From: Daphnia pulex
Lineage: Eukaryota > Arthropoda > Branchiopoda > Diplostraca > Daphniidae
Direction: 5' to 3'
NCBI RefSeq assembly: GCF_021134715.1
Contig: NC_060023.1
Coordinates: 1,674,001-1,738,000, forward strand
DNA length: 64,000 nt
Numbering within the stretch: position 1 is the first letter of the stretch; each line of letters starts with the position of its first letter. Below, one piece after another: positions 37,717 to 64,000 of this stretch. Under the pieces are notes generated by a model. That model saw nothing but the letters and a program-made list of their open reading frames with translations, had not been told where the DNA came from and did not search any database. Both the position numbers and the translations under genes were made by a program.

Positions 37717-37719
37717 AAC

Positions 37720-38660: not shown

Positions 38661-38662
38661 AA

Positions 38663-41815: not shown

Positions 41816-43721
41816 ATGGCTGCTGGCATCTCCTATCACATTCACGCCTGTTTCATCCTCTGCGCTACGCTGTGCATTTGCCAGACGGACGCCATCGATT
41901 TGGAAGGCCATCTGCAGCAGCTCAGAGACAACTATGTAAGTGGACGATTTTAGCTATTTATAATTATTATTACGTAATGGTCGGCAATTAACGAAATTGT
42001 GGTTTCGATGTAAGGAAATTTTAGCGGCCATTTTGAATCTACTGGAGACTCTGGAACGTAAAGTCGAACAGCAGGAAAGTGAACTTAGTGAATTGAAGAC
42101 TGAACAGCATCGAATCAGGACGGCCGAATCGTTCCAGAGGCGAATTCTTCCAGATGTTGGAATGGAACGGCATCGTCAATCGATCGGAACGGGCGGTGCC
42201 ATTCTCAGAAGTTGCAGCCACATTCGGGCGGCTCTTCCGTCACAAACTTCCGGCATGCACTGGATCGATCCCGACGGCCAGGGTGTTGGCGACGACCCCA
42301 TCTACGTCTACTGTAACATGACAACAGGTGTAAATTACATTTGATCAAATAATTATTCTGGAATCAATTAAAAAATCAATTAAGAAATTCTCAAGGTTCG
42401 ACTGCTATTTTGCACGACAGCGAATCCCGGATATCCGTTTCGCATTGCACTGAGCCCGGATGCTACTCCAGGGTAATTCAATATTCGGCCACTACTAAAC
42501 AAATGTCGGCATTGGCCCAGTTATCCGACGAATGCCACCAATCAATCCGGGTATAATCAATTATCACCATTGACTATAATGATTACAGTTTGAAAATGTT
42601 GAAACGAATTGTAATTGAATACAGTATGATTGCACCAGCGCTCCGTTTGAGATCAACGGCAACATTTATTCGTGGTGGAACGATCGGCACGGAAAGCCGC
42701 AATATTTCTGGTCCGGCAACCGGGCCAGCGTCCACACCTGCCAGTGCGGCATCGAGTACAACTGCATCGAAGCTCTTGCCGATTGTAATTGCGATTCCAG
42801 TCTACCCACGCCACTGGCCGATATCGGTCAGTATTTAAAACCCAATAACAATTTGATCATTTTTTGATCAGCGATTATATAATTGCGTAATAATACAGGA
42901 GTGATTACCGATAAAAACCTACTGCCAATCACGAGGCTCAATTTCGGCCGGACCGTGCTGGAAAATTCGTCCGGCATGCACACCCTGGGCCGGTTCGAAT
43001 GCACCGGACAGGTGGCCGTCCAGGGAATGCCATCCTCTTGCCAAGACCTTTGGCTCATAGGTCACACGTTAAGCGGATTGTATTCGGTCATGGGAGCTGC
43101 CATCGTCGAAAATGTTTACTGCAATTTCACGAAATTACCAAACGATCCAGGTATGAATCAAATCAAGTTTTATCATTTTTTGTTTTTAATCCGCCCGGAA
43201 TTAAAATTTTTGAAATCATTAAATTCAATTTTCACGAAGGTTTTCAGAAGTCACTGGGATTTGGATTCGCCGATATCAAATCGTCGCCCACGTATTTCTA
43301 CGTGCAGAAGAACACGACCTTCTCGGCGACGGGCATTCCGATGCCGTTCGAAGTCAACAAGGTGAACGTCGGAGGGGCCATGGATTTGACTACGGGGATA
43401 TTCACGTCGCCCAGACCGGGCAGGTGCTTCTTCTCGTTCACGGGATTGGCTCAGTTCCCGTTCGCCTCTCCTTACAAGCTGCGGCTGGGCGTCGGCATTT
43501 ACCTCAACGGCTACCTGAACGGCCGGGGCTGGGTGGCCAACACGGCCAGAAATCAGTGGAGCCAGTTCACGCTCCAGTCGACTTTGAATTTGAACGCGGG
43601 AGACAGGGTGTGGCTGCAGATCACGGACATGTCGGACGGCGTTTACCTCTACGACAGCAACAGTCATTACACTCACTTTACGGGGTGGCTTTTGGAGGAG
43701 GAAACGTTCGATTCGCATTAA
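41816..43721 (+). CDS. secreted coiled-coil + Caspr/fibrinogen-like + C1q protein, copy A
   Basis: Six exons (41816-41935, 42015-42327, 42396-42550, 42625-42826, 42899-43150, 43240-43721) join in frame to 507 residues. A signal peptide covers about 1-26 (ACFILCATLCICQTDA). A coiled coil rich in Leu/Glu/Lys follows, about 30-75. Then comes a cysteine-rich domain like that of contactin-associated proteins and fibrillar-collagen C-ends: WIDPDGQGVG, YCNMTTG, SHCTEPGCYS, a CQC/NC/CNCD cluster and then LADIGVITDKNLLPITRLNFG. The last exon is a C1q domain (FYVQKNTTFSATG through YTHFTGWLLEE). Such secreted C1q proteins oligomerise and bind ligands in innate recognition or extracellular matrix; the ligand is unknown. 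The start was chosen at the signal peptide; an in-frame upstream ATG-less extension is unlikely. Confidence 0.85.
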
Positions 43722-44029
43722 TTATTATAAATAACTGGAAATTGTATACCTGACTGAAATATACCGTGTTATTTATTCAAATTAGTGTGCAAATTATAAG
43801 TTCGGTAATGATTTATTGTTGATTTCTTATCATATCAGACGCTTCCGGGATATCCGTTTTCCTTAATACGAACGTAGAAATATGCTGATCAACTCACATT
43901 TTTTACTCCGTTTCTTCACAGCACAATAATAAAAGAAAAAAAAATTGTGTGTTTGAAACCCGTTTCGCAAAAATTTAATCACTGGTAAATGAAGCCGGTT
44001 AAGGTTGAGTAAGAATGCAAAAATTTCAA

Positions 44030-44102
44030 GGTCTCATGGCTTAGATGGCAAAGCGCCTGCCTAGTAAGCAGGAGATCACGAGTTCGAGTCTCGTTGGGAC
44101 CT
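44030..44102 (+). tRNA. tRNA-Thr (AGT), copy 2
   Basis: Identical over 73 nt to the copy at 37644, starting about 310 bp after the C1q gene A stop. An oligo-T run follows within about 25 bp. Confidence 0.95.
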
Positions 44103-44563
44103 AACTGCATATTTTATATTTTTTAAAAATTTGTATGTCTTAGAGATTTGCTTTTTTATAATGAATTTAACAGTTAACAGTAAAATAAATGCTGTATGAG
44201 AACGAAACAATTAAAAAATCCCCACTTAGTCTCATTTTAAAGCCGTTAAACGTACTTAACTTTGTTTAAAATAAATTTCTTGAGTGAAACACAGCAGAAA
44301 AGTTATTTCAATAATAATATAAGGTAACCTTTTCCAATCTTCCGAAATAATTTTCAACGCAACCGCTAGGGGGACATTTTGTATGCCGCTTCAATTTCTC
44401 TCTTGCGAAAAATTGAAAAAGGGACTAATTATTAACATTATTATCATTTTTGGGATTATTTAATTATAACGTCATGATGTCTTGGGCGACTTCGAAATGG
44501 CGTGTGAGCAGCTGGAGCACTGAACACAGATTAATTTATTATTTACAATATAAAGCTATTTCA

Positions 44564-44682
44564 TGGGTGCCGGCTGGGTAAGTCGGATAAGGCGTCGCAG
44601 TCGGTAAGCTGAGGAATCATCGCAAAATTAGGCTCGGGTTCGAATCTTCAGATATGCATAAAACTTCTTATCTGGGCACCCA
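44564..44682 (+). ncRNA. tRNA-like / SINE-like structured element
   Basis: TGGGTGCC at the 5' end pairs exactly with GGCACCCA at the 3' end, 119 bp overall. Inside are an A-box-like GGCTGGGTAAGTCGG (44572-44586) followed by TAAGGCG, as in Leu/Ser tRNAs, and a perfect B box GGTTCGAATC (44637-44646). Then comes a hairpin CAGATA...TATCTG between the B box and the 3' strand. The anticodon arm does not fold into a normal tRNA and no clear oligo-T stop follows. It could be a tRNA pseudogene, a tRNA-derived SINE head or a small Pol III RNA. Confidence 0.4.
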
Positions 44683-45409
44683 TCATCTTGCACATAGTGA
44701 GGTAAGTAAAAATTGTTAAAAAATTATCCCAGTATTAGTACATGCAGTATATTTCAATATCGTAATACATAATTAAATTATGTTATTATTAACGTGTATA
44801 CTATGTTCAATTCTCGCGATGCCCGAATAATCGATGATCGAATCATCATATTTATATGGTGCATGCTTGAAGACAGCATAATGAAATGTCTTAATGCATG
44901 CCGCAACACATGCCTTAATTCATGCCTTGAAATATCGGTGTACTAGGTTACTGGCCCCATTAGTTATCGTTAAAAATATATGTCTCTGCTCTGCAAAGTC
45001 CAGCAATGTCTGCCTGGGTTTGATTTGTTACAAAAGTAACGAATCAAATTTTTTTACAGGCAAACAATATTTTAATTAAATTGAGTAATCTGATTAGCCG
45101 ACCAGCACGCGTTTCAGTGGAAATTAAAATTTTCTGTCAAATATTTCCGTTACATATTTCTTCGAAACTTGAAGTCGAAAGTTCACAGATTTTGAGATTT
45201 TCATAACATCAGATCCTTTATTTTAGCTTAAATTTAGGTTTAAGATTGGAAATTAGGTCGACCCTGATTTCATTCTTGGTATAATTTTATAATGCCCCCT
45301 CTTAATTCCACGCAAGCAGTTTTGCCTCACATAATTAAATCGTTCAAAAATATAGGGCTGCATTTTAAAAAAGCTACCGTTGTTATACATAGGTGCGTAT
45401 AATAGCACA

Positions 45410-45632
45410 CAAACACTCATAAATAGTTTTAAAAACATAATAATTAACGAAGCCAAAATATGTATAGTCCACCACATAGTGAGAATTAGAATTACAATAC
45501 AGTTAATGACATTCGGCAAAATATTTATCAAACGTCAGAGGGCAAACGTCTCAAATCTCAATCGGTTCTCGATTCTTTTAAAACAGGCGGCCGTCGAGCG
45601 CGAGCCAATTGGCAACGCCGAACGACGTTTCC
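45410..45632 (+). repeat. duplicated CCAAT-containing element, copy A
   Basis: About 220 bp is nearly the same as 60131-60375. The most conserved parts are the segment starting TATAGTCCACCACATAGTGA and the GC-rich end with GTCGAGCGCGAGCCAATTGG continuing into GCAACGCCGAACGACGTT. Copy B has a short T-rich insertion before the GC-rich part. It may carry a promoter (CCAAT box inside a GC-rich core). Confidence 0.8.
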
Positions 45633-45639
45633 TGCACGA

Positions 45640-46690
45640 AACTTCGACTGCACTACAAAACAATAGTCGAAACTCGAAATAAACTCACTCCACTCATATA
45701 GGCCCTTAGGCTTTATTAACTTACAAACTTTGACGAACCAGTCTTCGAAGCTGTTAATAACTCAGCTGAGTGAGTTGTTTGATTATGATGATTATTTGCC
45801 ATATTAGTCCGTTCACGCAATTTTCTTCTTGATTGCCCAGAGTACATGTGTGAGTGTAGCCCTATCTGGTCCCACCCTAGTTGAAACAATCAATTTAAGG
45901 TAAGGAGATGTTAGAAATAGATTTCGAGATTATCATTGTTGAAAACGAAGTTAGGCATGGTCTTTCCTTTGCTTTGTCATGGCTTTGTCATCCATAGAGC
46001 TTCTCTGCATGTGTTGTTATTCTTGTTGAGTTGTAAACTAAAATGAAAGCAGGTTTCTTTTCTTTTTTCAACTGTGTGAGGAGAAAAAATTACATTTGAT
46101 CTATGCTTTGTTAATTTTTCTTCTCTTTCATATCCAGAATGGTTGCCAACACATGACACACTGGCCACTTGATGTCTGAGATGCTAATCAAATTATATTC
46201 CTTGTGGTAACAGATAGTTTTACTTGATTGAATTAATAAATTACAAATAAGCTGCTGGGATGTCAAAACAGTTGTGAAATACTTAAAAAAAAAAGGCAAC
46301 ACATTATCCTTTTCCAATGCCAAACCGATATGTTAAAGTTAAATGTGTCTTTAACTTCATATTGCAGTTTGTTTTTATTGGTGGTGTTGGTAATATTGTT
46401 ACCTTCTTTTAGACTGTTTGCTTCATTTGGCTTCTAAAGTTTTAACACACCTAACCAATTAATTTTATTATTTACTTAGTATGAATTTTTTGTGCTGTTT
46501 TTAGATTTAACAACAACGAGACTGAGTGATGCAAAATTCAGTTTCATTATTTAAACTTTTCTTTGTTACAGACATCTTGGAAATAATTGTGGCTTTGAAT
46601 TCACAACAAACCATTACACATGGAACAGAAATAGACTCAGCAACACTCATCAGAAACTGGTGCTTCTTCTCAATTCTCCAGTAGCCCGAC
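45640..46690. other. noncoding stretch before the SLK tail
   Basis: AT-rich, no exon accepted. At 46701 an ATG in the context GCCATGG opens 20 codons to a GTGATA donor at 46762, in the phase needed by the 46883 exon. It could be a new first exon for the SLK tail; this is speculative. Confidence 0.35.
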
Positions 46691-46882
46691 ACAAATCGCC
46701 ATGGAGGACAGCAACTGCCTAAATGAAGAAATTGATCGTGACCCTCACAAGTGCCGACAACGTGATAACGGAAAGATGTATTGAGTATTTAAATTTTCTC
46801 TCTTCAGGTTAAAATAATTCAAAAAATGTTTCATTTACCCCCTTTTTTTAAATACAAAATTGTACTTTGTACCCTTAGTCAG

Positions 46883-48012
46883 ACAATGGAATATTCAACC
46901 AGGAGACGACCAGTTTGTGGCGAGGATACGACACGGAGCTGGAGACGATGCAGCAAGTGGAACGTGCCGAACAGCAGCAGGATTCCGATCTTCGCATTTC
47001 GTCGAAGAAGATCCGCTCGGAGCAGGAGCGTGAATTGAAACTGTTCCGCGAAGGATTGAAACAGGAAGTGAGGCTGTTGAAACAAGAGTCGGACCTGCTG
47101 CCCAAAGACCAGCGCAAGACGGCCTTCCGTATTAAACGCCAGCAGCAAGAGGTGGAGCAGTCGGACAGGGAGCGCTCCTTCCTGGACAGTTTGAATCAAA
47201 GCCACGAAATGTCGCTTCGTCGCCTGAGTGACGGCCACCGCGAGAAAATCGCTCTGCTGGAACGGCAATTTTTGCAGCAGAAACAGCAGCTGCTCCGCTC
47301 CCGCGAGTCGGCCGTGTGGGAACTGGAAGAACGGCAGCTGCACGAACGCCACCAACTGGCCAGGAGGCAACTCAAGGAGATATTTTTCCTTCAACGGCAT
47401 CAAATGCTTGTCCGTCACGAGAAAGAACTGGAACAAATCCGACGGTTCCAAACCCGCAAAGAGGTTCGTTATTTTTTAAAAATTTCCAAATGTTGATGGA
47501 AGTAATGGGTGTAATTTGTCGTTGCAGGAGGATCTTTTGAAGCGACAGGCGATCGAAAGACGGGCGCTACCTAAGCGGATCCGAGTGGAAATGAAAGCCC
47601 GTGAAATGATGTTTAGAGAGTCGATGCGCATCTCAGTCAACGCTGCAAGTTTACCCAGCGGATTGGCTTCCCTGGCTGGTGCCCTGAACTTCCCCGATAC
47701 TCCGGATAACGAGCGCGATAAATTGCGCAAGTTCCAGGAGCAGGAGAAGAAGCGCTACAAAGCCGAAGAGCAGCGCTGCGAGTTGAAACATCGCCGGCAG
47801 TTGGAAGAACTTCGTGCAGCAGCCGATTCTTCCGTCAAAGGTAAATTGTTGAATCGATTATTTCAAATTGCCATTCACTCTTTAACGGATTGTTTTGTTC
47901 AACAGAATTGGAGCAACTGCAAAACGAGAAGCGCAAAATGTTGATGGAACACGAAACGATGAAACTCAAATCGCAGGATGACGAGTTCCAGTCGGAATTG
48001 CGGGAACGGTAG
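46883..48012 (+). CDS. SLK: SLK/STK10-type kinase C-terminal domain only (truncated gene)
   Basis: Three exons (46883-47463, 47528-47840, 47906-48012) read in frame for about 330 residues of charged coiled coil. The sequence closely follows the C-terminal PKK/ATG domain of SLK and STK10: ELKLFREGLKQEVRLLKQES, LLPKDQRKTAFRIKR, SLRRLSDGHREKIALLERQF, HERHQLARRQLKEIFFLQRH, LPKRIRVEMKAREMMFRES and ELEQLQNEKRKMLMEHETMK. In the full kinases this part dimerises and ties the protein to membrane and cytoskeleton. No kinase domain is visible upstream. A TAG at 48010-48012 falls where relatives continue with Glu-Trp-Lys/Arg, and the frame after it still resembles the family (KLKPRKQKLEDDF), so the last 30 or so residues have been lost. 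It is either a partial duplicate with a new 5' end or a young pseudogene. Confidence 0.75.
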
Positions 48013-49830
48013 GTCAAGTTGAAGCCCCGCAAGCAGAAACTGGAAGATGATTTCGCTTTGCAATTGGAAGATCAGGAGAAAATCGTTTTATTCGTCCCTT
48101 CCGCCTACTGGAAATGCCCTGAGTTACGTTGTCGTTGGCAGTTTTTCCCACCCCACTCACTTTAAAAACCAGTTTTTTTTTTGCCCTATCTAGTATCCAA
48201 TATTTTTTGGTGACTTAATTTAATTTAAAAGAAAACCTTTCAGCTCAATGATTCATTCACCCCTCCCCCCTCCCCTCCACTATAATTTACAGATGAAAAT
48301 AATAATAATTCTAAAGGGTGTGACTTTTTGATTCCTAGTTTCGTGGGAAATGAGCTCTCTTCTTTCGAATTTCGATGCACAACAAACGACACATACAATA
48401 AGAAATATTAACGCAAATTGAAAAAAATAATCTAACTGTCAACGATTTTCATTTGTTGCTTCCACATGGTAATACAAATTTTTTTATTTTTTTTTTCATT
48501 TTGTGTTTGTTTATTCTAAAAAATAAAAAAAAAAAATTCTTTTCATTTTTTTCTTTTTATTTTGTACTTCTCAAGTGAAAATGTGCATGTCGCTTAGGAA
48601 CTTTGTAACTTGACTCTTTCCCTCTCTCCAGGGCTGACTATTGACTAATAAAAACTTGCTTTGTCTTAAAAGATAAAACATTTCTTTCCTCCCCAAATCT
48701 TTCCCTTGCTGATTCCTCTTTAATCGTGCCATTTCAGCATTTCTATAATTCTATTGTACTGTAGGATGTGTCGGCGCTCTGCTTTATTAATCTACTTTCA
48801 AACTATATATTAACTTGTACATCTTCAAAACTTAAAGTTTATATCAAGAGAGAAATTTTCCAAATTGTCCAATGAACGTGATTCTATCTTATAAATTATG
48901 ATTTTTTCTTTAGCGATTTTCCTAAAGATGATTCTTACTAAGTTTTCAAACAAACGAATAATTACGACGAGTACAAACGAGTAATTTTTAATAGCTTTTT
49001 TCGCTTTTTTCGCTTTTTTCTCTCCTGAAATTTTAAACAAATGATTTAGCTTTTAGCTTTTAGCGTTATGCGATAGCGATTGCATAATCTGAAACCCTAC
49101 GATGCCAACTCTTACCGCTAGATGCATCACCTCCCAGTACGGTTGATCGGAAGGGGATGGGTAGAAGGTAGAGGTATGGTATGGCCGTAGCCGTAATGGT
49201 AGTAGTTCGACGACCGACCTTGGGCTAAGTTTAAAAGTAATACGTGTGAAAACGCAGAGGCTTATTGTAATTGTTTACTTTAATGCTCCAATATTATGAG
49301 TCTGGATTTTTTTTAGTGATTACCTTTTTAGCTCAGTGATAGATTTAAGTTACGAACACGAGACTGAGGTTTTAAAGAAACTTAATCATTCTCATTGGTA
49401 AAGATCGATCTATCTGCCTATCAAAATATAGAGCTAAATTGCTGCTCTGTTTTCAATTTTCCATTTACAGACTGAGGATTAGAGAGTTTATTTGATACTT
49501 TTACTACACAGATAGTAAAACATTATATGTTATTTCTCCTCTTTTAATCTAGGTTAGGTTGCACAGTGTATTACCACTCTTTTGAAGTTGATACATATAC
49601 CTGCAGAGTAGGAAGTGTAGGCTATGTGTTTATAAGTGTGTAGTACTTGACTTGACGACAAGTACTGGAATTACTAAACCCTGTTTTGTAAAGGTGTTTG
49701 GAAGCACGAGCACAATTTGGCCAAACACAAAGTGGTATTTAAATATCAAAGTATTTCCTATCCGAGCACCTCATATACTATTAATTTGCTGTGATAGACT
49801 GATTTGGAAGGCGACGGAGGCATTCTGTTC
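48013..49830. other. noncoding stretch
   Basis: AT-rich. The right part (from about 49250) is the left end of the sequence repeated at 53.5-54.3 kb and may hold the promoter and 5' untranslated exons of the tudor gene. Confidence 0.5.
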
Positions 49831-49836
49831 AAAGAT

Positions 49837-52800
49837 ATGGAAGAAGCCTTGCCGAATCATCAAAAAATTCTTGAGGTTACATTTTACAATAATGACTGAT
49901 ATTGAACAACCATTACATTTTTGCTCTCACAGATGCCAGATCCTGACGTTGGACGTACGGACGTTGATGTTGATGATACACATGCAACCGAATCCAGCGA
50001 TGATGATACTATCTCAGTTCTTAGTGAAGCCGAACGCTGTAAAAATTCCGTCGTCACCCCTGATGGACCTCCTAAAAAGCGTTTAAAAGGCCCTGAGCCG
50101 CCTACGCTGGTCTTCCAATCGCCGGAAACCGTACCATCACCACCACAACAACAACAACCCCAGCCAGTATTTAGCCCGAGCAAACGCCTTGCATCCCCTG
50201 TATCTGAACCCATACTGCCTGATTATGAGGAGCCCACTACGTTTTCTCCAATCTATGACAATGTCGCCCAAAAACCTTCTTCGCCTCCGCCCAGCGTCAC
50301 GGTCACTGTAACTAGTCCAGTCGTCCAGGTCTGCCCGGACGCGAAGCCTTCAGCGACGCTACAGCAGACTGAACAATTGAGCATCAACTTTGACGGCTGC
50401 GAATCCTCGACGGACGATTCACTTCCCTACGAAACCCAATCCAACCCACCTGTTGAGCGTTTCGTGAGCGTCGTGAGCGTCGTCAACGTCACAGAGGACA
50501 AAGCAGAAACCGACGAGGAGAGTCAAATGATTGGCCAGAAACTTGACGAATCCGAAGTGCTCATCCTCAACACTTCCAGCGTCGTGTCCAATGGCGTCCC
50601 ACTTGAAATCGAGTCGAAGAATGACGACAACAACGAAACCCCCCAAACAGTCAAGCCGGACGAACCGGAACAGCAAAGCAACGAAGCAGCGGACGAGCAA
50701 GACGGCCGGCAAAACAATAACAACGCCGTATTGGAATTCCGTAGCGATGTTTCTTGTAATTTGTCTCAGGTATCCAGCCTTTCACGATCCAGCTCTGGCA
50801 GCGACCGTAGCAGTTTGTCAGAAAGTCGAGAAGACACTTCCGTAATTCACAATTCTATCACTGTCGAAGGTGGGATCATTTATCTACTCCGCAAAATATT
50901 TGACTTTTAAAATTAACATTTTAGAAGCAAATTTTCCAGGCACCACACAAGAAGCAACAGATGATGTCTCTTTTTCCCTGTCGGATGTCGTGTCGTCGCC
51001 TGAAATTGTTTCGACATTGCCGCCCAAGGAACGATCGCGATCACCAAGTCCCCACATTGAGAAAACTGATCCAGTCAAAGAAGTCGAAGAGGAAGAAGAA
51101 GACGACGAGTCGATTCTGAGTCCCAACAGGAAGGTGAAGGGCGACGCGTCGGGTGATTCCGGAACCGGAACGGGAGAAACCAATATCCCCAGCACACCTT
51201 ATTCAGCCTTCCTCGAACGGACTCTTGATTTTTCCGATATCGAAAGCACATCTGGGTAAAAAAAAACGGTTAAAAAGCAATTCAACCAACAATTCCATTT
51301 TCTAACTTCTGTCTTATTATTTATTTCCAGGACTGGAACGATGGGAAGCCGGTGTAGCCGCATTAGCGATTCCGTCATTGACGTTGAACTGGTCGAAGTA
51401 GTTACGCACTCCATGCCGTCCTCTGGTCGTAGTTTGAGCACAGTCAGCATCGGCACGACGATTAATTCCTCAACAGTTCCAGTGTCGTTTATCCCGTCAG
51501 TATTCGGTCAGCATTACGGTTCTTCCTTTGCCTGTTCGGCTTCCTCTTCCACAGTGGTTGTCTACCGTAGTCCTTGCACTCTTCGGACCTACCCGAAAAG
51601 AAATCTGATTCTCAAGAAACGCTATGAAGTACTTATCACAAATATGCCCGACGGACCGTTCCTCTTTTACTTGCAGTTGAAGAAAGAAAATCAGAACCAC
51701 TTGAAACTACGCAAACTTATCAACTCCGTAGCTCTTACTTCCTTTGTCGGGGAACCAAAGCCAGGAATGGTTTGCCTGGCACTCTTTCCCCACGATAATC
51801 TAATTTATCGAGGAACCATAATGGCCATTAGCCATTTTGGGGGAAATTGTGTCTGTATCGTCAATTTTGTGGACATCGGCATCGAGGCGCCCGTTGAACT
51901 CGATTTGATTTATGAAATTCCACAAATGATGCTGAAACTGCATGTGCTTGCTTATCGTGCCTCTTTGTTCGGCATTGAAGATGCTGCCAAGAACCTCGTG
52001 GGGTTGAATGACGCATTTATCTCTTTAGTAAAGTCATCCCCAAATCTTGTTGCCGAAGTTGAAGAAGTTGGACCCACTGGAATCCCAAACATTTTTCTTC
52101 ATGATAAAAATGGCCGCAGTATTCTCGACAGTCTTAACTCTCAATTTAACAACAAAATTTCATTGCCCCACGTTCGCCATGCTACTAACCCAGTGAGAGT
52201 CTCCCAGGTATTAAATCACACCCAATTGTATTGGTCTTTGTATTTCATCAATTTGTTTTCATTTCAGATCGACCATGCAAAGATATCTGGTGAAGAATGT
52301 CTCTTCGTCGTCTCAGCTGAGGAAGAAGGATTTTTTTTCGGTCACTTGGAAGAATCGGAAGACTCCTGGTTCGGTGACGTCATAGGTGAGCTTAAACTTG
52401 TTTATTCGTCCATCAGAAACCCGCCCTTGATGCATTTGTCATTTAATAAATGCCTAAATCTTTATGGGGTTGCCAAATATGCTAACAGCTTCTTTAGAGT
52501 TCAGGTTGTTAAAGAAATTGGGTTGAGATTCGTTGTTCTTCTGGTTGACTATGGTACTCAAGTCACAGTAAATTGTTCCGATATTTTTGCGCCAGTTGCC
52601 GGCTTGATCCATTTCAAAAGACCATCATTCGGCATTCGTTGCCGATTAAAGGGAGTGTATCTGGCTAATAAGGAAAAATGGAAGAATGTAATGATGTTCA
52701 AAACAATCAAGGTGGGTACTGGTGAACTATGGAAAGGGGCCTTATGTGTGGAATTGTCGGACCATTTTTTGAATTCTGAAGTTAAAAGACAGCTATTTGC

Positions 52801-52849
52801 CATTCCTTATGTTTTGGATGAGAGTGAAGACGAATCAATTTATTTTTAA
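49837..52849 (+). CDS. protein with two tudor domains
   Basis: Five exons (49837-49875, 49933-50869, 50925-51255, 51331-52207, 52268-52849) join in frame to about 921 residues. The first 570 are disordered: acidic, Ser/Pro/Gln-rich, with a nuclear-signal-like PPKKRLK and an SPSP/RSRSPSPH segment. Tudor domain 1 lies near 578-640 (KPGMVCLALFPHDNLIYRG, then VNFVDIGIEAPVELDLIYEI). Tudor domain 2 lies near 790-860 (YANSFFRVQVV, VVLLVDYGTQVTVNCSDIF). Extended tudor domains bind methylated arginine on PIWI proteins and build germ granules, so a piRNA-pathway role is likely but inferred. The 60-nt intron at 52208-52267 is in frame and lacks a stop. The start is uncertain: the exon is open a little upstream of the ATG at 49837. 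Confidence 0.75.
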
Positions 52850-53519
52850 GAATGTTCGAAATTTTTCATTCTCATTGTTTGTCTCATTTTTGTATGTTCA
52901 TTTTCTCCCAACATCGGTTAGTTAACTGTTAACCCCCATTTCTTTTAGTCGTTGTTTCGTTGATCTTTAAGACACGACGAGTGTACCTAAAAATTTTATG
53001 GCTTGACAACCAACTTCCGGTAACTTCCTGTGTTGTAAGCTTGTTACTTGTAATTGAGTTCCATGTATTTTTCCATGTATGTTTCGAAAGTGTGGACTAC
53101 AAAACTGAAATTATCTTAAGGGAGCTTAATAAATTAACACTGCTTCTAGTTTTCGAGAAGATAAAAGTTCGTCTGACAAAGAACCATAAGCCAAAATTTA
53201 CCAAAAGAACAAAAATACCCATGTAGTCACGACGTCACGTACACCGGTACACGTAGTCTCTACTGATGATAAACCATTAAATAGTGTTGAATAAAAATTA
53301 CGCCATTGAATTTTTTGATTGTTTTGAGAATTTGTAAAATAAGTCGTTGCATGCTATTTATGTTCCTTTGTTTCGTCTTGATTATATGGCACTATGCCTT
53401 AGCTATCCAGTATCCGTGCCCTCCGCGCTCCGCCACAGCCACACACGTGATTGAAACAAAGATTCAAGTCAAGAAATGTTGAACACCATAGAGCCGCACC
53501 CGCAAGTAGTCCGTGACAA
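52850..53519. other. 3' flank of the tudor gene
   Basis: Noncoding, AT-rich; no separate feature seen. Confidence 0.5.
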
Positions 53520-54840
53520 AACGCGGAAGCTTAAAATATTGTTTACTTCAATGCTTCAGTGTAATTATGACGTTTCTGACAGATAGAGCTAAATTGCTGC
53601 TCTGTTTCAATTCACAGACTGAGGATTAGAGAATTTATTCGAGTCGGTCTCATATTTTGTTTACTTTTACTGCATAGATAGTAAAACATAGATATGTTAT
53701 TATAATCTCCTCTTTTAATTTAGGTTGCACAGTGAATTGAATACCACTATTTTGAAGATGATGATACATACAGTAGCAGTAGGCTGTGTGTTTATAAGTG
53801 TGTTTTTGTAACGACAAGCACTGGTACCCTTGAATCCTGTGTTTTCAAAGCTGTTTTGAAGAATGATCGCACAATTCGGCCAAACATCAATTAAGTTTCC
53901 AATTAAACTAGTGGTAAGAAAATATTTATTTAATTATTTGTTATCCTGTGTCTAACAAATTTTTTAGACATTTACTAAATTACTACTACACAACATTAAT
54001 CTTTTTATTTCTCCTCTTAATCTATGTTAAACAGTTGTTCACCACTCTTTTGAAGTTGATACGGATAACTGCAGTAGGCAGTGCTGTAGGTTATGTGTTT
54101 ATAAGTGTGCTTGTACATGACTTACCGACAAGCACTAGGACTACTAAACCCTGTTTTTTGCAAAGCTAGTTTTGAAGCACGAGCCAAATTTGGCCAGCAA
54201 ACATATCTTCCCAATAAAATTGGTGGTAAGAAAATATTAAATTATTCTCTATCCATATCACCTCATAAACTAATATGTGACAGACGACTGACTTCAAAGG
54301 CGACGACGGTATTCTGTTCGAAAATATAGAAGAATTCTTTCCAAACCACAGAAAAATTCTTGAGGTTAAATTTTTCAACAACTTTTATTTTTTACAACCG
54401 TTACATTTGTGCCTTTTAACAGATGCCAGAAACCGTCGTGGAAAATCAAATGATTGGCCAGAACTTAAGGAATCCGAAGTGCTCATCCTCAATAACACTT
54501 CCAACGTCGTGTCCAATGGAGTCCCGTTTGAAATTGAGTCGAAGAATGACGACAATAACGAAATTCCGAAAAACAGCCAAGCCGGGATGAGCAAAACCAC
54601 GAAGCAGCGGACGAGCAAGGCGGCCGAAAAACAATAACAACGCCGTTTTGAAATCCCTCCTCCTGTCTCAGGTATATCCAGCCTTTCACGATCCAGATCT
54701 GGCAGCGACCGTCATTGACGTCAAAAGACAAAAAGTAGTTTTGCGTTAGCCGTCCTCTGGTCGTAGTTTGAGCACAGTCAGCATCGGCACGACGATCAAT
54801 TCCAAAGCGGACACCACGTGTGAACGTGAACAGACTCCAG
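53520..54840 (+). pseudogene. rearranged partial duplicate of the tudor gene 5' half
   Basis: 53520-53900 repeats 49250-49720, and 53990-54375 repeats the same left part again together with the first coding exon (GILFENIEEFFPNHRKILE against GILFKDMEEALPNHQKILE). At 54422-54640 a fragment of exon 2 follows (ESEVLILNNTSNVVSNGVP) after a large internal deletion, and 54751-54808 matches exon 4 (SSGRSLSTVSIGTTINS). Both tudor domains are missing. The frame is broken at the end of the exon 2 fragment (stop at 54635-54637). After 54808 the sequence no longer matches the parent. It is probably not functional. Confidence 0.75.
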
Positions 54841-54957
54841 TGCGGCGTGCTCTCCGGACGAAAGAAGAGATGCTTTCAGATGGCTAAGGTAGTAGCTAGG
54901 TAGTCACCTGCTGATTAGAACGGCAACTAATTCATTCGATTGTTGGGGCTTGACCAG

Positions 54958-55010
54958 GTATTCTACGCCGACGAAAACGACGGCCGCATCTACGACGAGC
55001 ACTTGCTGAG
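54958..55010 (+). other. unassigned candidate coding exon
   Basis: Fifty-three bases between CCAG and GTAATT read VFYADENDGRIYDEHLLR with strongly C-rich third positions, unlike the AT-rich flanks. The family is not recognised. It may be a captured exon from another gene next to the tudor-derived copy. Confidence 0.3.
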
Positions 55011-55076
55011 GTAATTATTAACCTTTTCTAAACCAATCGAAATCTGAATAGAATAGCTTTATTTAAACTAGCGTAT

Positions 55077-55118
55077 ATTTTCACAACCGAACGTGAATTT
55101 TAAAAAAATCATGATAGA
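55077..55118. repeat. direct repeat flanking tRNA copy 3 (left)
   Basis: TTTTCACAACCGAACGTGAA and the following A-rich tract ending ATGATAG recur at 55705-55749 with few changes. Confidence 0.7.
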
Positions 55119-55566
55119 AATATCTCACAACTTTTTCTCTGGGTAAACCAACACATTCGGAAATATTTGAATTTTAAACACTTGAAGCAAAGTGCAACAA
55201 GACCATTTTTTTACCTATAGGGACCCGCCGCCACACCGGCACTTTTTCGTTAATTGGTGGGAGAAGAATTCGGCTTTAGGCTAATGGGCCCTAAATATTT
55301 CCATCCATCTCGCAAACACAAGTTAGCCAAGCTCAACAGATCGATGGCCTGAAAGAGTTGTCGATGTATTTATGCATCGATGCATCATACGCTTCCGTGT
55401 TTCCCCGAACACAAATCGGAAGTAGGGATCCGTGACTAATAAGAAATAATTTCCGGCATTTCTTCACGACAAAATGAACAGCATTGCTGCTACGTAAGAT
55501 ATCTATTCAGCGTTAAAATCCAAAGCGTTTAAGTTTCAGTACCGATACTGCACGCGTGATGTGCAC

Positions 55567-55639
55567 GGTCTCATGGCTTAGATGGCAAAGCGCCTGCCTA
55601 GTAAGCAGGAGATCACGAGTTCGAGTCTCGTTGGGACCT
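55567..55639 (+). tRNA. tRNA-Thr (AGT), copy 3
   Basis: Identical over 73 nt to the other three copies. TTTTT directly overlaps the 3' end (CCTTTTTAAT), a normal Pol III stop. Confidence 0.95.
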
Positions 55640-55704
55640 TTTTAATCTATTCTTAATGAATCAAAATCTTTTCAGGATAGCTGTTTTGTAAAAGTTGGGT
55701 TCTT

Positions 55705-55749
55705 TTTCACAGCCGAACGTGAATTAAAAAAAAAAAAAAATTATGATAG
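55705..55749. repeat. direct repeat flanking tRNA copy 3 (right)
   Basis: Second copy of the 55077-55118 sequence, with a longer poly-A stretch. The pair brackets tRNA copy 3 and the 0.6 kb around it. Confidence 0.7.
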
Positions 55750-55849
55750 CTTTAGAATTTTGTAAATTTATTTAAACGGAGCGTTCTCATGAACTCATCT
55801 CGCTGTGAAGAGCACGGAAGCTTATCAACGCTTATCAACTATGTGAATA

Positions 55850-56120
55850 GTTGCGCCCATTCCGTGTAAAAGGTTTAAAACCGCAACAAACAACTGCGCA
55901 CTTCGCAGCTGTTTTTACGTTTGTGTATTTGAATGACCAACTAAAAGTACGAGTGATAGTGTGGGTTGACGAGATTATTCCCTTGAATATCAATGCAAAT
56001 TTACGGGGAAATAATTGTGGTTATCCAGACCACACTTGCTTTCATCAGTTGTGCATCCTGACAACTTTCCTCATTTTACGGGTTGGCTGCATCAGGAAAA
56101 AATGCCGTAATGTCTTACTA
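55850..56120 (+). pseudogene. decayed C1q-domain relic
   Basis: One frame ends NFPHFTGWLHQEK, matching the C1q C-terminus of the two full genes (HYSHFTGWLLQKE). Another frame upstream has VYLNDQLKVRVIVWVDEI, resembling their GLYLNGNLNSRSWV strand. The pieces lie in different frames, with no intact exon. It is probably the remains of a third copy, between tRNA copy 3 and gene B. Confidence 0.4.
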
Positions 56121-56129
56121 TGTGGTGTA

Positions 56130-57145
56130 GTACTGACCCACTTCACACAAAAACAGGTGAACAGGTGGCAATATAAAATGCTTAAAAGTTATCTAGCTTC
56201 AAGGACTCCTATTGAGTCATAGCGTAGACAAATTAAAAGAAACTTATCGAATTGTAACCCTTAAAACAAGACATTTAAAATGGGTAAACCCATTATAATT
56301 TCCCGTCGATTGGGTATTTCCGATCTCGGAATTCCCAACAGGACAATGGGAAAACCCGTAGCTCGATGAGCTGCTCGTTCCAGCCTTTTTCTGTATAAAA
56401 CACGTTGTACCGCAATCGAATCGAGACTAAGACAACATGATTTGTGTCTCCGCAATTCACCCATTTTCAAATGTTCCAGACATTTTAACGGCAGAGATTT
56501 ATATGTGGGAAGAGATTTTTTTTTTTTTTTAGGAAGGAGCGTCGTATCCGGAACGTGCACAGTTGAGTACCTAGTTATCGATCTGTCCTGAAATTCCGGC
56601 CTGCGTAACGGATTTTACCCGTTATAGCGAAACGAAATATTCTCTTGCAGCCAACAATCGAATGAGTTTATACTTCTTGCTTCTTGAGTTTATTATAATA
56701 GCTTTCCCCCTACAAAATAACTTGACCTTCCATCCATAACATATTTGCGTTTTATTCACGGTTGCCAGCCCGGAACCCAACTCCCTATACCTTATTCAAT
56801 AGAAATTCTTCTCAGAACCCTAGACTTTTCTTATGGAGCCCGTAAGGCATACTATAGCAATAAAAATCGTATTATATTGCAGTTGTAAAAGAAAAAATTG
56901 GTTATTTTTTTTAATGAATTGGTATAACGTCTCCCGAAAATTCGATGCATCGTTATACCCAAGTAATCCGACCGCTAGTGCGACGCCCCATATAATTTTA
57001 TAACAATCTTTTTAGTTACGACAATAAACTAAGTTATTTTTATGAGGGGGAACCCCTTTCCCCAATAGGAACAAATTTGACTTTCTCCAAAATATTTTAA
57101 AGAAAAAAAACCCAGCACTCTACAAACTGTTTGCTGCTGGGCTTA
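56130..57145. other. intergenic, nothing seen
   Basis: AT-rich spacer before C1q gene B with no accepted feature. Confidence 0.5.
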
Positions 57146-57150
57146 TTGTC

Positions 57151-57158
57151 TATAAATG
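57151..57158 (+). promoter_or_regulatory. TATA box of C1q/Caspr-like gene B
   Basis: TATAAATG lies about 64 bp upstream of the ATG at 57215, in the same context (TATAAATGG) as gene A. Confidence 0.6.
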
Positions 57159-57214
57159 GTGGCGTTCCATACATGCCAGGATAACACTCCAATTGTGGAC
57201 GACGTCAAGATAAC

Positions 57215-59027
57215 ATGGTCCGGGTCGCCGCAATGGCTGCATTTATGCAGATTTCCGTATTGTGGATGAATGCCGTTGTCGGTTTTGATTTGGAGGACCA
57301 ACTGCAACAAATGAGAACAAAATATGTGAGAAATCATTTCATTTTCATGTAGCTATTGAATTTAACTCGGCAACTTAATATTCATACTTTAATTTTATTT
57401 CATTGTCTAGGAAATTTTAACTGCGAAGATTCACCAACTGGAAGCACTGGAACGAAGAATAGAACAGCTGGAATTGTTTTCACATGACTTACAACAGAGA
57501 AAATGTCCTACAACTAACAAATCCGTTCCGCAGAATACTGAAATTAGCCGCCAATCAAGAGAAAAAAGTTCCATACCTAGAACTTGTCACGATATTCGCG
57601 TAGCTCATCCGTCCCAAACTTCCGGCATGTACTGGATCGATCCGGACGGTCAAGGCGTCGGCGAAGACCCAATCGTCGCCTTCTGTAACATGACAACAGG
57701 TACTTAAACAGAAATATTCGACTTTTAAAAAAAGTTTATTCTCAACGGATTTCAAGGTTCGACTGCTATTTTGCACGACAGCGAATCCAGGATATCCGTT
57801 TCGCATTGCAGTGATCTCGGATGTTATTCGAGATTAATTAAATATTCAGCGACAAGTGGACAAATGTCGGCATTGGCCCAGATATCCGACGAATGCCACC
57901 AATCAATCAGGGTAATCAAATATCATTGATATACAAATTCAAGATAAAATGATTAATCAATTATTGAATGCAGTATGATTGTACCAGTGCTCCGTTGCAG
58001 ATCTACGGCATCATGTTTTCCTGGTGGAATGATAACGACGGAAATCCGCATTACTTTTGGTCCGGTGGAAAGAGTAACGTCCACACATGTCAGTGCGGAA
58101 TAGAAGGCAATTGTGTTGAAGACCTTGCTGCTTGCAATTGCGATTCGAGTCTACCAACACCGCTAACAGATATTGGTAATGATCATGGTTATGGTATTAA
58201 CCGTGAGACAGGAATGACAGGATTTTTAAATTATTATTGTAGGAGTCATCACGGACAAAAATATTCTGCCGATCACACGACTGAACTTCGGTGGGACCTT
58301 AACGGCAAATTCGACCAGTCAACACACCCTCGGACGATTTGAGTGTACAGGACAGGTGGCTGTCGATGAAATACCGACTTCATCTGGGGATCATTGGCGC
58401 ATGGAACACAAGTTGAATGGGTTGCGCTCGGCAGTTATGGGAACTGATGCATCAGACAAGTTCGACTGCGATTTTAAAACATTTAAAAACAATGCAGGTA
58501 TGACATTTTTTGAAATTGCGATTGGCCTATAACGTGTCTAGTCTAATTACCAAAATGTTATTGTAGATTTCAAGAAATTCATTGGAATGTCAGTGTCAGC
58601 TTTTTTTTACGTTCAGAAAAACACGACTTTCGCTACAACGGATATTCCAATTCCATTTGAAATTGCCATGGCGAACGTCGGAGACGCAATCAACTCAACT
58701 TCCGGAATCTTCACTGCGCCTCAAGAGGGACGATATTTCTTTTCTTTTACGGGGTTGGCCCAATTCCCGTTCTCATCTTCCTACAAACTTCGACTCGGAG
58801 TCGGCCTTTATTTGAACGGCAACCTAAACAGTAGGAGTTGGGTAGCAAATAAAGCCAGCGACCAACACAGTCCGTTTAGACTCGAATCCACTCAACATTT
58901 GCAGCCGGGAGACAAGGTGTGGCTGCAGATCACCGACATATCCGATGGCGTCTACCTCTACGACAACAGTAATCATTATTCTCACTTTACGGGATGGCTT
59001 TTGCAAAAAGAAATTTTTGAGAAATAA
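57215..59027 (+). CDS. secreted coiled-coil + Caspr/fibrinogen-like + C1q protein, copy B
   Basis: Six exons (57215-57325, 57411-57699, 57757-57911, 57974-58175, 58243-58497, 58567-59027) join in frame to 490 residues. Intron phases match copy A at all five positions, and exons 3 and 4 have equal lengths (155 and 202 bp). A hydrophobic signal sequence (AAFMQISVLWMNAVVG) is followed by a short coiled coil. Next is the cysteine-rich Caspr-like domain (WIDPDGQGVGEDP, YDCTSAPLQIYG, HTCQCGIEGNCVED, ACNCDSSLPTPLTDIG, TRLNFGG) and then a C1q domain (FYVQKNTTFATTD through YSHFTGWLLQKE). The conserved middle exons and diverged N-terminal exon suggest selection on the recognition domains. The role is as for copy A; the ligand is unknown. 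Confidence 0.85.
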
Positions 59028-59029
59028 TT

Positions 59030-60130
59030 CATTTGTGTGTAAACGCCTTTTCAAAATTAACGTAATTTATGAATAACCATGTGAAAATTTGCTCCTATGT
59101 TAATACCGTTAACGATACTAGGTACTTTTGTAGTTGGGATTTTCGGAGTGTTTCGGAATTAGGTCGCATACTGTCTTTGAATCAAAGAGTTTAGAAGTTT
59201 ACAGAAGCGCGTTTGGCGCAAATGGAAATATTTTAATAAGCGACGCCTCCTTCCATAAGGTTACATAACATAGCCCAGATGGCAGATAAATAAAACTGCT
59301 ACAAAGCGAACAAGACGAGGGCAATTGCAACAGCTGATATCGCATTTCTGTAACCATTGTCACGACGTCGATTTAGTTCCGCCTCGACAGGCTTAATAAC
59401 ATTTTCTCCAGAACCTTTTCCTCGTAATAACCTTCAGCAAATCATGGCCTGTCAGTGGGTCGTATGCGTACTTGCGTTATGGATAACATCGAAGCGAATA
59501 AAAAATAAATGCACATAACCAAACAATTCGCTTAAAACTTACCAACACAAAAATAAAACATGTAGAGATCCACTTTTGTATTCAAATTTTATAAAGAAAA
59601 GTGATGCTGCAAAATATAACGGTCTCATGGCTTAGATGGCAAAGCGCCTGCCTAGTAAGCAGGAGATCACGAGTTCGAGTCTCGTTGGGACCTATCTTTT
59701 TACAAACTGAAATTAAGAGAAAGGGAATAACCAAAACCTAAAATGAACTTCATTTTTTACCTCATGCAGGTAAGTACTATACCTGTAAATAGAAAATACT
59801 AATCATAGTTCAAATACTGTTTGTTAGTTCAACCGATTATATTTCTTATAAAATCCTATTTCTGTTTGGTATTCCTGTATATTTTATTTTTCTCGATAAA
59901 GAATTGCTCAGACGAAGCCATCACATCAGCCTTCACAGACCACTGTAAAATGGCGATATGCGCTCAAAATTTTCGAAACCGAATTGTTAATTTATACTTT
60001 ACCGTGGTAATAACGTTATTCTTTATTATATGCAAATTGGCGTGACCTTGCAGAGGACGAGATGATAGATGTAAAATTCGCAAGGTTTTGAATTTTGTGT
60101 CAAGTTTTTAGTGCAAGCCATTAGACGTAG
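59030..60130. other. noncoding stretch around tRNA copy 4
   Basis: Apart from the tRNA at 59621-59693, no feature accepted. Confidence 0.5.
59621..59693 (+). tRNA. tRNA-Thr (AGT), copy 4
   Basis: Identical over 73 nt to the other copies, starting about 590 bp after the C1q gene B stop. CTTTTTAC follows as terminator. Confidence 0.95.
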
Positions 60131-60375
60131 CACCCAAACTCATAAAAATAAATTATAGGTTTAAAAAACCTCATCATGATTAACGAAATGCGTATAGTCC
60201 ACCACATAGTGAGAATTAGAATTACAGTTATCCACATTCGGCAAAATATTTATCAAACGTCAGATTGCAAACGTCTCAAATCTCAATCGGTTCTCGATTC
60301 TTTTAAGCTGTTTTTAAGTTTTTTAAAACAGGCGCCCGTCGAGCGCGAGCCAATTGGCAACGCCGAACGACGTTC
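60131..60375 (+). repeat. duplicated CCAAT-containing element, copy B
   Basis: Counterpart of 45410-45632, including the identical GC-rich core with AGCCAATTGGCAACGCCGAA. It lies about 0.7 kb before the NudE fragment, as copy A lies about 1.1-1.3 kb before the SLK fragment. Confidence 0.8.
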
Positions 60376-61073
60376 CCATTTCTTAAATAATTCTTTCCTA
60401 GACGGCTAGACGCTGACAGTTGTTCGTGATCACTAAGGCGAACTTCAACGTTTTCCACTATAAATATCACAAAGGTAAATTTGCTTTATGTTCATTAAAA
60501 TTTCTGAATGTTTAGAAGATATGTTTACACATCCTTTTGTTAATGTTAAAGTTTTTCTAGCCTTCGATCTGGCCAAGACGTAGTGCCGATCACGTGGCGT
60601 GAAACTGCTGACCATGTTACCGAAATATCTTGCTTCGATGCTTCCTGTACGTCTCTCTCTATGCAGAGAAGGTTATTAAAAAAGATGGTATGTTGAATAT
60701 TTATTGATGTACAGTAAGACATGGATAAATTTCTTTATCTACTTAAAAAATGTGTGTTATACACAATTCAGTTTCTGTTTGTCGTAACTATATTTCTGTC
60801 TGTCTAACTTTAAGAAAATTGCAATGCTAAAGCAATTTTGAAGAAAGATGTTAGATTGTTACTTCATTCCTGCCATTTTTCAATGTGCCTTGCCTGTGAT
60901 GTATATCTATTCCTTTACGAAGCTAAATCTGTCTTTTTCTCTGTAGGTTGTGATTGGATGCCATTGTGTCGTAATCTGACATTGAATAAAACATATGGGT
61001 CGAGGGCAGGGTATCATGTGATGAATCCGCATTCTAAACGATTTCTTTTTCTTCAACCAATTCCCAATTTTAG

Positions 61074-61919
61074 ATTTGAAGCAAGAACTTCAGGTTCGGC
61101 AGAAGGCCATTCACGAGACACCGGACAACGAAAAGCAAGAGAAAGCCGTTGTAGACGAAAACGAAAAATCGGATCCGACGAAATCGCCGCTGGCCTACCC
61201 TGCGAGCAATAACAACAACAAACTGCCCTCCAGCGTGCCCCTCAAACGTAAACAAAACTTGGAAAAATTATTCTTGTTTCTTTTATAAAGTCAACATTTT
61301 CCCCGGCCCAAAATTTATTTTAACCTAATTGTTTTCTTTTATCAGCATTGGCAGTGACCGACACGGGAATCACTCAGGCAGCCCGGCATTCCGCCTTGAA
61401 CATTGTTGGAGATTTGCTTCGACGAGTTGGGGTAAGATAACACATTTCGTGACATTTTGTTTTTTATTTCATTTTATACATTTTATTTGGGTGAAATTCT
61501 GATTGTCATTGAAATCAATATACTGTGTAGTGTTTAAGGCAGCAGCTCAGCAACGTCCAAAATCCATCACCTGGAGTTTACTACCCACTCTTTCCCAGGT
61601 GCCAAAATGAACCCCAACTCTCTGTGTGTGAGAGATCCCCTTCAATGCCGTCCTCCCCTCCACTTGTACGTCCCCCTTTTAGCAAAAGTTTGGCTAGCCG
61701 ATCTAATGCCTCTCTAGCTGGCTTGAATTAATCTGGATCAAAATTCGAATTTAACAGGCTCTTCTCACTTAACAAACTCGACGGCTTGTGATTGGGAACT
61801 TCACGATTTCTAATGGTGGCCCTTTTGTTATTCTTTTATTTTCAGGCGTTAGAGAACAAATTATCAACGTGCCGGACTATGGTGAAGGAGGGCAACGGGA
61901 CGGTCAAGGAAGCTACTAG
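61074..61919 (+). CDS. nudE: NudE C-terminal fragment
   Basis: Three in-frame exons (61074-61247, 61346-61431, 61846 to about 61919) match the C-terminal half of NudE/NDE1/NDEL1: DLKQELQVRQ, then a polar linker, [20 protein letters not shown] and GALENKLSTCRTMVKE. In relatives this reads [20 protein letters not shown]. NudE scaffolds LIS1 and cytoplasmic dynein, and its N-terminal coiled coil (about 160 residues) is essential for that. No exon for that coiled coil was found upstream in the window. The last exon may splice at ACTAG|GTCACG or read on to a stop at 62046. It could be the 3' part of a gene with distant 5' exons, but is more likely a partial duplicate. Confidence 0.7.
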
Positions 61920-64000
61920 GTCACGATGCAATCTCTCTCTTCTCTCTCTATCCACTGACCTTAAACTCCTATACCATGGTGTGTTTTTGTTCAACAAATC
62001 GTTCTTGATTAGAATTTACTTCGGACAATTAGTCCACCTTATTTAATTCATATCTATGGTGAGCCGAACTAGTTTTATGGTTTTATACTTAATAACGACA
62101 TATTTCAAATGATTTGTTTTCTTTTCTTTTCGGGAAATAGTATAGATGAGCGCCACGTGTTTCATTTTGCATTACTTTGTGGGAAAAGTTGCCAGCTAAC
62201 TTCAAACGTTTCCCTTTGACAACTTTTTCATCAGTTTTGAAAAGTCCCCGATAAGAAATGGATGGCCACACCTACAGTGCTGTGTTAGTGGTATCTTTTT
62301 TTTTCTTAAAGGTAACAACTAACAGGCTTTTAACCCCCAAAACTGTTTGAATAGTCCTACTTATTTGCAATTTCAAAAATTGTCAACTGGTTTTCATAAT
62401 ATATTTTGTAGCAGTGATTCGGATTTCATATTCCTCATGTTCCACTGCAGAGTGAAATTCATTCTTTGAACCCAAAACACTTGGACTTGGACTTTTGGAC
62501 ACTTGGACTGAGGCTTCTGATGATTTGAAAGGATAATATTTGTAAGCATGAAAGAAGTTGTTTGTTTTTTTTAGGTAGAAGAATAATTGACTCCATATGA
62601 AATGCACCTTTGATGTCAAATCTGTGGTGTGTTATTTTTCCCTCGATCGCCGCTCGGAATGAGGGTAATGGGGGCTTCCCTCAACTTCGTTAAGGGCATG
62701 TTCTTTTTTTAAAGACAATTTGGTTTGACATGCCAACAACGATTCCCTTTTCTGAATTTCCTCTTCCTGAATTCTCTCTTAACCCCTTCTTCCTTGCCCA
62801 CTGTCAGCCATCCCTGCAACGGTCCGCTGGGTGCTCACATCCACTTGATTGAAGCTCTTAAACTCCGTCCTCTTTCTCCCAACTCTTTCTTCCAACTGTA
62901 ACATTTCCTTGTATGTAACGATTGAAATTCATTTCAAGCCAACGTATTTAAATTATTTATGAATTTTCTTTAGTATTAAGGAGAAGCCAAAACGTTTCTG
63001 ATGTGTGAGTTTCCTTGGCGTTTCAGGGATTCCGACAGCATTATCTCCAATGCCAGAAGGATTATTGAGATTGACAGAATGATTATCCCGGTAAGCAATT
63101 CTCCGCCCTACATTCCTAAATAACCCAAATCTTGCTCAAGTATTAACGTTGAACTTAAACTGTCCACAGTTATTACGGAAATTTTACTTAATTTATTTTT
63201 ATGAAATATTTTTCACAGGGATTTTAAATGGAATTTTTCCATTACAAGTTCCATTACCCAGTTGGCCTTACTTTAAAGTTTTAACCAGTTTTATCAAGAG
63301 ATCCAACTCGTTCTACTCGAGACAGATTTCACCAGGGATTCGTTTCTTAATCGAGAAGGTCATCCTGAAGTGCGTAGGAGTCTGAGAAATCAATTGTGGT
63401 ATGGAGGTTTAATTTAAGCAATTTGAAATACCCTAACATTTATTTATGTTCTTGGTTCCACCATGGTGGTTTCAGAATCGTCATCAATTTGAATCATCCG
63501 CAAACCGCCGGCTCTTGAAGCATTTCACCAACACCTTCGACCATCGCCTTACGGTTCGACGCCAACATGGTATGTCTCTATTTAAAGAATAAAACATTTC
63601 TTGTAGTTGTGTTAAACCGGATACTGTTCTACAACAGAAGTGTGTTTTTAATTGAGTAGCAAAATAAAATGTGGCTATTAGATTGTTGTTTAAGGATACT
63701 GGCTTCATGGCATGGAGAGGAACAAATTTCGGGTTAAATTTTCTATAAATTTAAACGTTAAAGTTAAATTTTAAAAATTGCCATAGATCGATTTAGTTAT
63801 TTACAACCCTTGATTTGATTATCTTTCCTTATGCCAGCATAATTTTAACAAACAGCCAATTTGAACTCGTATATTCTTTTCCCGTTTGAGTTACAAGTCA
63901 GTTAGTGAAACATGGACCTCGAATGTCTTAATGATTCAATTGAATTTGAGAATTCAATCAAATATGAAATCTCAATTATACTAGAGAACTAGCAACTTGC
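61920..64000. other. mostly noncoding right end with small candidate exons
   Basis: No gene accepted. One tidy exon-like segment, 63029-63090 (TTTCAG before, GTAAGC after), reads DSDSIISNARRIIEIDRMII. Another frame near 63297-63415 reads TDFTRDSFLNREGHPEVRR. Neither is recognised. They could be further NudE exons, a second captured fragment or chance. Confidence 0.35.

Follow-up and report, generated by a model that had tools for sequence, protein, structure and literature searches.

Partial and chimeric duplication is a known source of altered gene structures, and it is suggested in a review on the subject (PMC3449122) that many chimeric duplicates arise by the secondary fusion of earlier partial duplicates. 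Similarly, a study of tandem duplications in Drosophila yakuba, which used RNA-seq and population data, describes exons and regulatory elements being shuffled into chimeric structures (PMC5460883). The duplications described here belong to this known kind and were found in a 64,000-nucleotide stretch of the Daphnia pulex genome (NC_060023.1, positions 1,674,001 to 1,738,000 of the forward strand), referred to here as the window; bare positions are those of the window, which corresponds to C7:1674001-1738000, and C-prefixed positions are those of whole contigs. As in the reviewed partial and chimeric duplicates (PMC3449122), duplication edges fall within genes and fragments of different sources are juxtaposed, whereas the candidate fusion in the window, in which part of an SLK-type gene is joined to a Tudor-domain gene (SLK-Tudor), is in frame and lies within exons on both sides. 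The window also resembles the D. yakuba structures (PMC5460883) in the shuffling of exons and regulatory elements by duplication, but here the copied sequences originate 100 to 138 kb from the window copies, one of which has the inverse orientation. A paper on Daphnia gene families (PMC12102780) contains no occurrence of the terms C1q, tandem, Tudor, or collagen.

The original prediction, which is the origin of the names SLK and NudE used here, described a promoter-bearing module that had captured different gene tails, with a C1q gene, a tRNA-Thr(AGT) gene, a CCAAT element, and a C-terminal-only fragment (of SLK in one instance and of NudE in the other) occurring twice. This order, with all elements on the + strand, was confirmed by self-BLAST of the window (which returned 14 similar pairs, including the C1q pair, the tRNA-Thr copies, and the CCAAT pair), ARAGORN, and Rfam, and the paired elements are offset by 15.4, 15.6, and 14.7 kb, as had been proposed. 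The homology of each element (C1q, tRNA, CCAAT, SLK, and NudE) is far beyond chance. The capture of tails by a module is not borne out, as the C1q pair, the CCAAT pair, and the tails have different sources and edges and have diverged to different extents, and their spacers are without detectable homology. We consider the region to be, probably, a mosaic of independent local duplications rather than one module, with SLK-Tudor as a candidate gene formed as a by-product. In support of a mosaic, the synonymous divergence (Ks) of the SLK tail from its source is 0.08, versus 1.4 for the C1q pair, and no duplication edge or history common to the putative promoter block and the captured exons was found. 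A dense patch of local duplications has thus left gene fragments side by side, and a possible SLK-Tudor hybrid lies between the two look-alike stretches; the region would therefore represent a small example of partial copies fusing into new genes.

All comparisons were made within one genome assembly (133 Mb, 13 contigs), in which the source of the SLK pieces is a full-length SLK-type gene at C7:1585217-1589703, 132 kb upstream, with kinase frames from 1585217, a PKK frame extending to 1589703, and Pfam matches to kinase and PKK (Polo kinase kinase) domains. This gene supplied a tail, a middle piece, and a third fragment to the window, all of which, unlike their source, are without the kinase domain. 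The tail (46894 to 48894, + strand) comprises PKK-domain exons and the 3′ untranslated region (UTR) from C7:1588348-1590682 and is a genuine 5′-truncated copy whose full source gene lies elsewhere on the same chromosome. Similarity starts at 46894 and continues to approximately 48894, including the 3′ UTR, with an in-frame TAG at 48010. The tail begins in the middle of an exon, carries a 15-bp in-frame deletion in addition to this TAG, and has its final coding part deleted. The SLK 3′ UTR and downstream DNA contain 30 indel events of mixed length in 652 aligned bases. Relative to the source, its Ks is 0.081 and its nonsynonymous divergence (Ka) is 0.006, with five nonsynonymous changes, whereas a copy branch evolving neutrally should have gained approximately 33 (P of 1e-9 under a Poisson model, or 2e-4 with a low Ks). 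As this Ka is far below half of the Ks, the tail was protein-coding during most of its existence, whether within a longer gene or since then. A working SLK-tail gene is possible, the Ka/Ks constraint being the sole point that keeps it so, and an earlier copy that was still full length may have been the one under this constraint.

The middle piece (49959 to 51469, + strand) derives from C7:1586261-1587795 with 91.5% identity and lies downstream of the tail; a decayed third SLK-derived unit (53583 to 55011, + strand; SLK part at 54427 to 55011) follows, such that the pieces are arranged along the window as tail, middle, and middle. The middle piece forms part of the candidate SLK-Tudor gene (49933 to 52849, + strand; exons 49933 to 50869, 50940 to 51255, and 51331 to 52849). 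When the splice sites of the source gene are applied, the candidate frame comprises 2,772 bases and 923 codons, with GT-AG sites, one terminal stop, and no internal stops. At the junction (51469/51470), the SLK exon passes in frame into a 5′-truncated Tudor-domain gene (51470 to 52849, + strand) with the native frames of both kept, and two donors, at least one of them genic, are thereby united in a single reading frame, as is expected of a chimera. The Tudor half contains two Tudor stretches (Pfam TUDOR, E value of 3.7e-18), and its best match in PDB is Maternal protein tudor (E value of 3.3e-5). Its five best-scoring relatives in the genome, among 38 listed matches that include the window's own, are 37 to 43% identical and are located on contigs C10, C7, and C9; many of the listed relatives lie on C10. 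In two Tudor-domain genes on C10, with 37% and 43% identity to this half, the same open frame extends approximately 262 residues upstream beyond the alignment, at which position the window copy has SLK sequence.

The SLK-Tudor frame is preceded not by the CCAAT element but by a locally triplicated sequence, here termed X (49428 to 49940, + strand), three copies of which were present among the matches listed, all inside the window. The decayed third unit consists of two X-related segments (X′ and X″) and broken SLK pieces, and, having the same upstream X, it shows how decay appears locally. If transcribed, SLK-Tudor is predicted to encode an SLK-derived N-terminal half followed by two Tudor domains, without a kinase. 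It is proposed, tentatively and at clearly less than even confidence, that SLK-Tudor is a young working gene for a new Tudor protein, having acquired its SLK piece from 138 kb away and being adjoined by a partly constrained SLK-tail gene. Tudor proteins have a role in the germline small-RNA pathway, in which the SLK-Tudor product may also act.

Alternatively, one or more SLK copies that were once full length may have broken down into the present pieces, with SLK-Tudor being no more than a chance junction that is not transcribed; this falls only slightly short of an even chance. It accords with the presence of both tail and middle, the strong constraint on the tail, and the broken third unit, but a search of the window for remnants of the kinase domain found none: of the source's kinase region, only the last 38 bases have a match there, and these are part of the middle piece. 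It is also opposed by the preservation of both partner frames across the junction and by the three indels in the exons of the middle piece, of 3, 3, and 18 bases, all multiples of 3, in contrast to the mixed lengths in the 3′ UTR and downstream DNA. The Ka and Ks of the middle piece relative to its source (0.057 and 0.104, respectively, over 455 codons) yield a Ka/Ks ratio of approximately 0.55. In simulations of neutral decay by substitutions only (1,000 runs each), the probability of no stop arising was 0.001 at 8% divergence per lineage and 0.008 at 5%. The same simulations count against the candidate at lower divergence, the probability rising to 0.067 at 3% and 0.155 at 2% per lineage, at which the openness of the frame is not significant. 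Gene conversion between the SLK copies is possible: the longest run of identical codons in the middle piece is unusual (permutation P of 0.0026), though the longest stretch free of synonymous changes is within expectation (P of 0.30), and the tail showed no effect in this test (P of 0.41). Heterogeneity in Ks was indicated by two Fisher tests (P of 7e-5 and 0.002), but as the split points were picked after inspection of the data, conversion is regarded as no more than a possibility.

The second C-terminal fragment, that of NudE, is likewise 5′ truncated, with C-terminal exons from 61074, but it is part of a tract of approximately 24 kb that reaches C7:1758824 and not a gene tail alone. Within the window, this tract (60953 to 64000, + strand, running past the window end) includes three C-terminal NudE exons and is related to C7:1614886-1635320, relative to which it is inverted. 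Its first block (60953 to 61966) matches C7:1635320-1634286 on the opposite strand, approximately 100 kb upstream, with 11 mismatches in 1,014 aligned bases (98.9% identity), and the next block, extending to the window end, has 110 mismatches in 1,960. A 1.9-kb portion of the source (C7:1632366-1634285) is absent from the window copy at 61966 to 61971. The fragment retains a splice acceptor, and the one NudE frame scanned against Pfam yielded no match. The 5′ coding pieces of NudE (129 residues, first exon excluded) match only C7:1635581-1636119, with three matches from 12 candidates. Consequently, like the SLK tail, the NudE tail is a 5′-truncated copy with a fuller source elsewhere, and both represent partial gene duplicates.

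On its left, the duplication that carries NudE has its boundary inside a NudE intron, at the point where a dispersed repeat (60767 to 60954, + strand) ends. Seven copies of this repeat were listed elsewhere, on four contigs; six terminate no more than 4 bases from this boundary, and the seventh falls 10 bases short of it. That query reached only 6 bases beyond the boundary, but with a longer one extending to 61500, five of five repeat copies end at 60949 to 60954. The corresponding flank of the NudE source is without this repeat. The composite tract further holds a palindrome, beginning at 63063, with two arms of approximately 10.25 kb that are 97% identical and separated by a 1.3-kb spacer, and an inverted repeat is present in the source region of the duplication (C7:1615265-1617468 and C7:1624411-1626614, 99.5% identical). 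Such an abundance of large inverted repeats would be compatible with an assembly error having joined unrelated blocks, an explanation to which we assign a minimal probability, given that no N occurs in the 254 kb examined and that a divergence of approximately 1 to 12% separates the SLK and NudE copies from their sources, so that they are not the same DNA placed twice.

In contrast to the low Ks of the SLK tail, the C1q genes are much diverged. Gene 1 (41816 to 43721, + strand; six modeled exons with an intact frame) and its paralogue, gene 2 (57215 to 59027, + strand; six modeled exons), match in self-BLAST with 72% identity (42196 to 43694 versus 57568 to 59003), and their exon models share 62% amino acid identity over 490 codons, with a Ks of 1.42 and a Ka of 0.26; for the C1q exon taken alone, Ks is 2.8. 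On these models, the C1q pair is old. Gene 1 carries COLFI and C1q domains, and the domain previously termed Caspr-like scores instead as COLFI, the C-terminal domain of fibrillar collagens (E value of 1.8e-12). In a one-way search with the C1q exon of gene 1 (best 150 of 255 candidates), gene 2 was closest (68%), followed by a match of 64%. Approximately 107 of these best 150 C1q-like exons sit on contig C10.

The tRNA-Thr(AGT) gene predicted in both blocks is present in each, at 44029 to 44103 and 59621 to 59693, but the window total is four rather than two, further copies being located at 37643 to 37717 and 55567 to 55639 (all on the + strand; ARAGORN and Rfam). The bodies of all four are identical and are thus useless as a clock, and the flanks, in the comparisons made, share no homology beyond a few gene-adjacent bases. 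Among the best 40 of 311 tRNA-Thr candidates genome-wide, 30 lie in two arrays (C5:5482972-5611005 and C3:5492338-5502218), and four of the remaining 10 are in the window. For none of the six nonarray copies outside the window was a C1q exon listed at a distance of 5 kb or less (best 40 of 311 and best 150 of 255 candidates, respectively).

Spacers and flanks were subjected to 10 comparisons under two scoring schemes with 60 shuffles each, six between modules (C1q to tRNA, tRNA to CCAAT, CCAAT to tail, the C1q 5′ flank, tRNA to C1q, and the upstream regions of the first and third tRNA copies) and four pairing tRNA flanks of the same module. None of the 10 exceeded the shuffled maximum (six of six between modules and four of four within; largest z of 1.7). 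The missing homology fits independent events and also one very old duplication whose spacers would have decayed. A rival account, which we judge rather unlikely as a whole, is a single old tandem duplication of approximately 15 kb encompassing C1q, tRNA-Thr, and CCAAT, with the CCAAT element kept by selection as a promoter or enhancer and the SLK and NudE copies arriving later and independently. The points that weigh against a mosaic are those on which this account draws: a single tandem duplication would be expected to leave three element types in the same order and a shared orientation at near-equal 15-kb offsets, and strong promoter selection could explain a 94%-identical CCAAT element beside diverged spacers. 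Moreover, a C1q Ks of 1.4 would leave neutral spacers unalignable, and four of the 10 nonarray tRNA-Thr copies (best 40 of 311) lie in the window. The shared C1q-tRNA-CCAAT order does suggest a tandem duplication that is old, and the near-constant offsets favor a very old duplication for C1q and tRNA, although the CCAAT element is harder to fit.

The difficulty lies in the edges of the CCAAT element, which are sharp and differ among three copies. Copy 1 (45423 to 45632, + strand; approximately 210 bp) pairs with 60155 to 60377 of copy 2 (60008 to 60377, + strand), with 12 mismatches in 202 aligned bases and 38 gap columns (80% identity with gaps, 94% at aligned bases). The left part of copy 2 (60008 to approximately 60150, some 140 bp) is common only to the third copy (C7:1302255-1302667, 417 kb away), whereas copy 1 stops abruptly there; the right edges are also unlike one another. 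A genome search with the element returned these three copies among the matches listed. Within 10 kb around the third copy, neither a tRNA nor, by tblastn, a C1q gene was found. Three candidate identities or settings of the element were rejected. A 28-base core, allowing up to three mismatches, occurs at two genome sites, both in the window, which does not suit a common dispersed repeat or promoter motif; for a known RNA, Rfam at gathering thresholds gave no hit in the window apart from the four tRNAs and none in the 10 kb surrounding the third copy; and a position beside a paralogue of the C7:1302935 gene gave no match above shuffles.

A mobile CCAAT promoter module that captured exons twice and now drives SLK-tail and NudE-tail transcripts is considered highly improbable. 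The third copy does lie approximately 270 bp upstream of an open frame (which has no Pfam match), the SLK tail, with a Ka of 0.006 against a Ks of 0.08, was protein-coding during most of its existence, and the NudE fragment has kept its splice acceptor. However, the CCAAT elements end 1.26 kb (SLK) and 0.58 kb (NudE) ahead of the tails with no common sequence found between, the NudE piece belongs to the approximately 24-kb tract, and the SLK tail has a mid-exon start, a premature stop, and a 3′ deletion. Of the proposed route to chimeric genes, fusion by duplication is thus plausible in this region and is better seen at SLK-Tudor, while the promoter-module mechanism is unsupported.

Returning to the mosaic, from the source, edges, orientation, and divergence observed for the SLK and NudE pieces, and the edges and divergence observed for the CCAAT copies, we infer both an order of events and a mechanism. 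An old C1q tandem duplication, possibly including tRNA-Thr, would form the background, to which a small CCAAT element was presumably copied as a separate event. An SLK segment would then have been copied from 132 to 138 kb upstream and scrambled, placing the tail (46894) ahead of the middle (49959), and the SLK linker region would have been joined within an exon, in frame, to a truncated Tudor-domain gene. A large tract related to DNA 100 kb upstream, its first part inverted, was probably introduced with its left edge in the NudE intron (60953). Repeated local duplication with breakpoints within genes, in the case of NudE next to the end of a repeat, followed by rearrangement, may have proceeded by illegitimate recombination or template switching. 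SLK-Tudor would accordingly be a candidate young chimeric gene that is open to testing and whose SLK donor is still intact nearby. The locus also advises caution, since genes and elements that recur in one order can mimic a module even though its parts differ in age and source.

Some neighboring sequences were also noted. The segment at 60468 to 60795 has a 70% match to C9:8240190-8240536. Repeat-rich open frames are carried by the palindrome (63063 to 64000 and on to C7:1758824), one of which presumably resembles a cuticle protein. Between tRNA copy 1 and C1q gene 1, long open frames are present at 38642 to 39780, which we take to resemble beta-1,3-galactosyltransferase.

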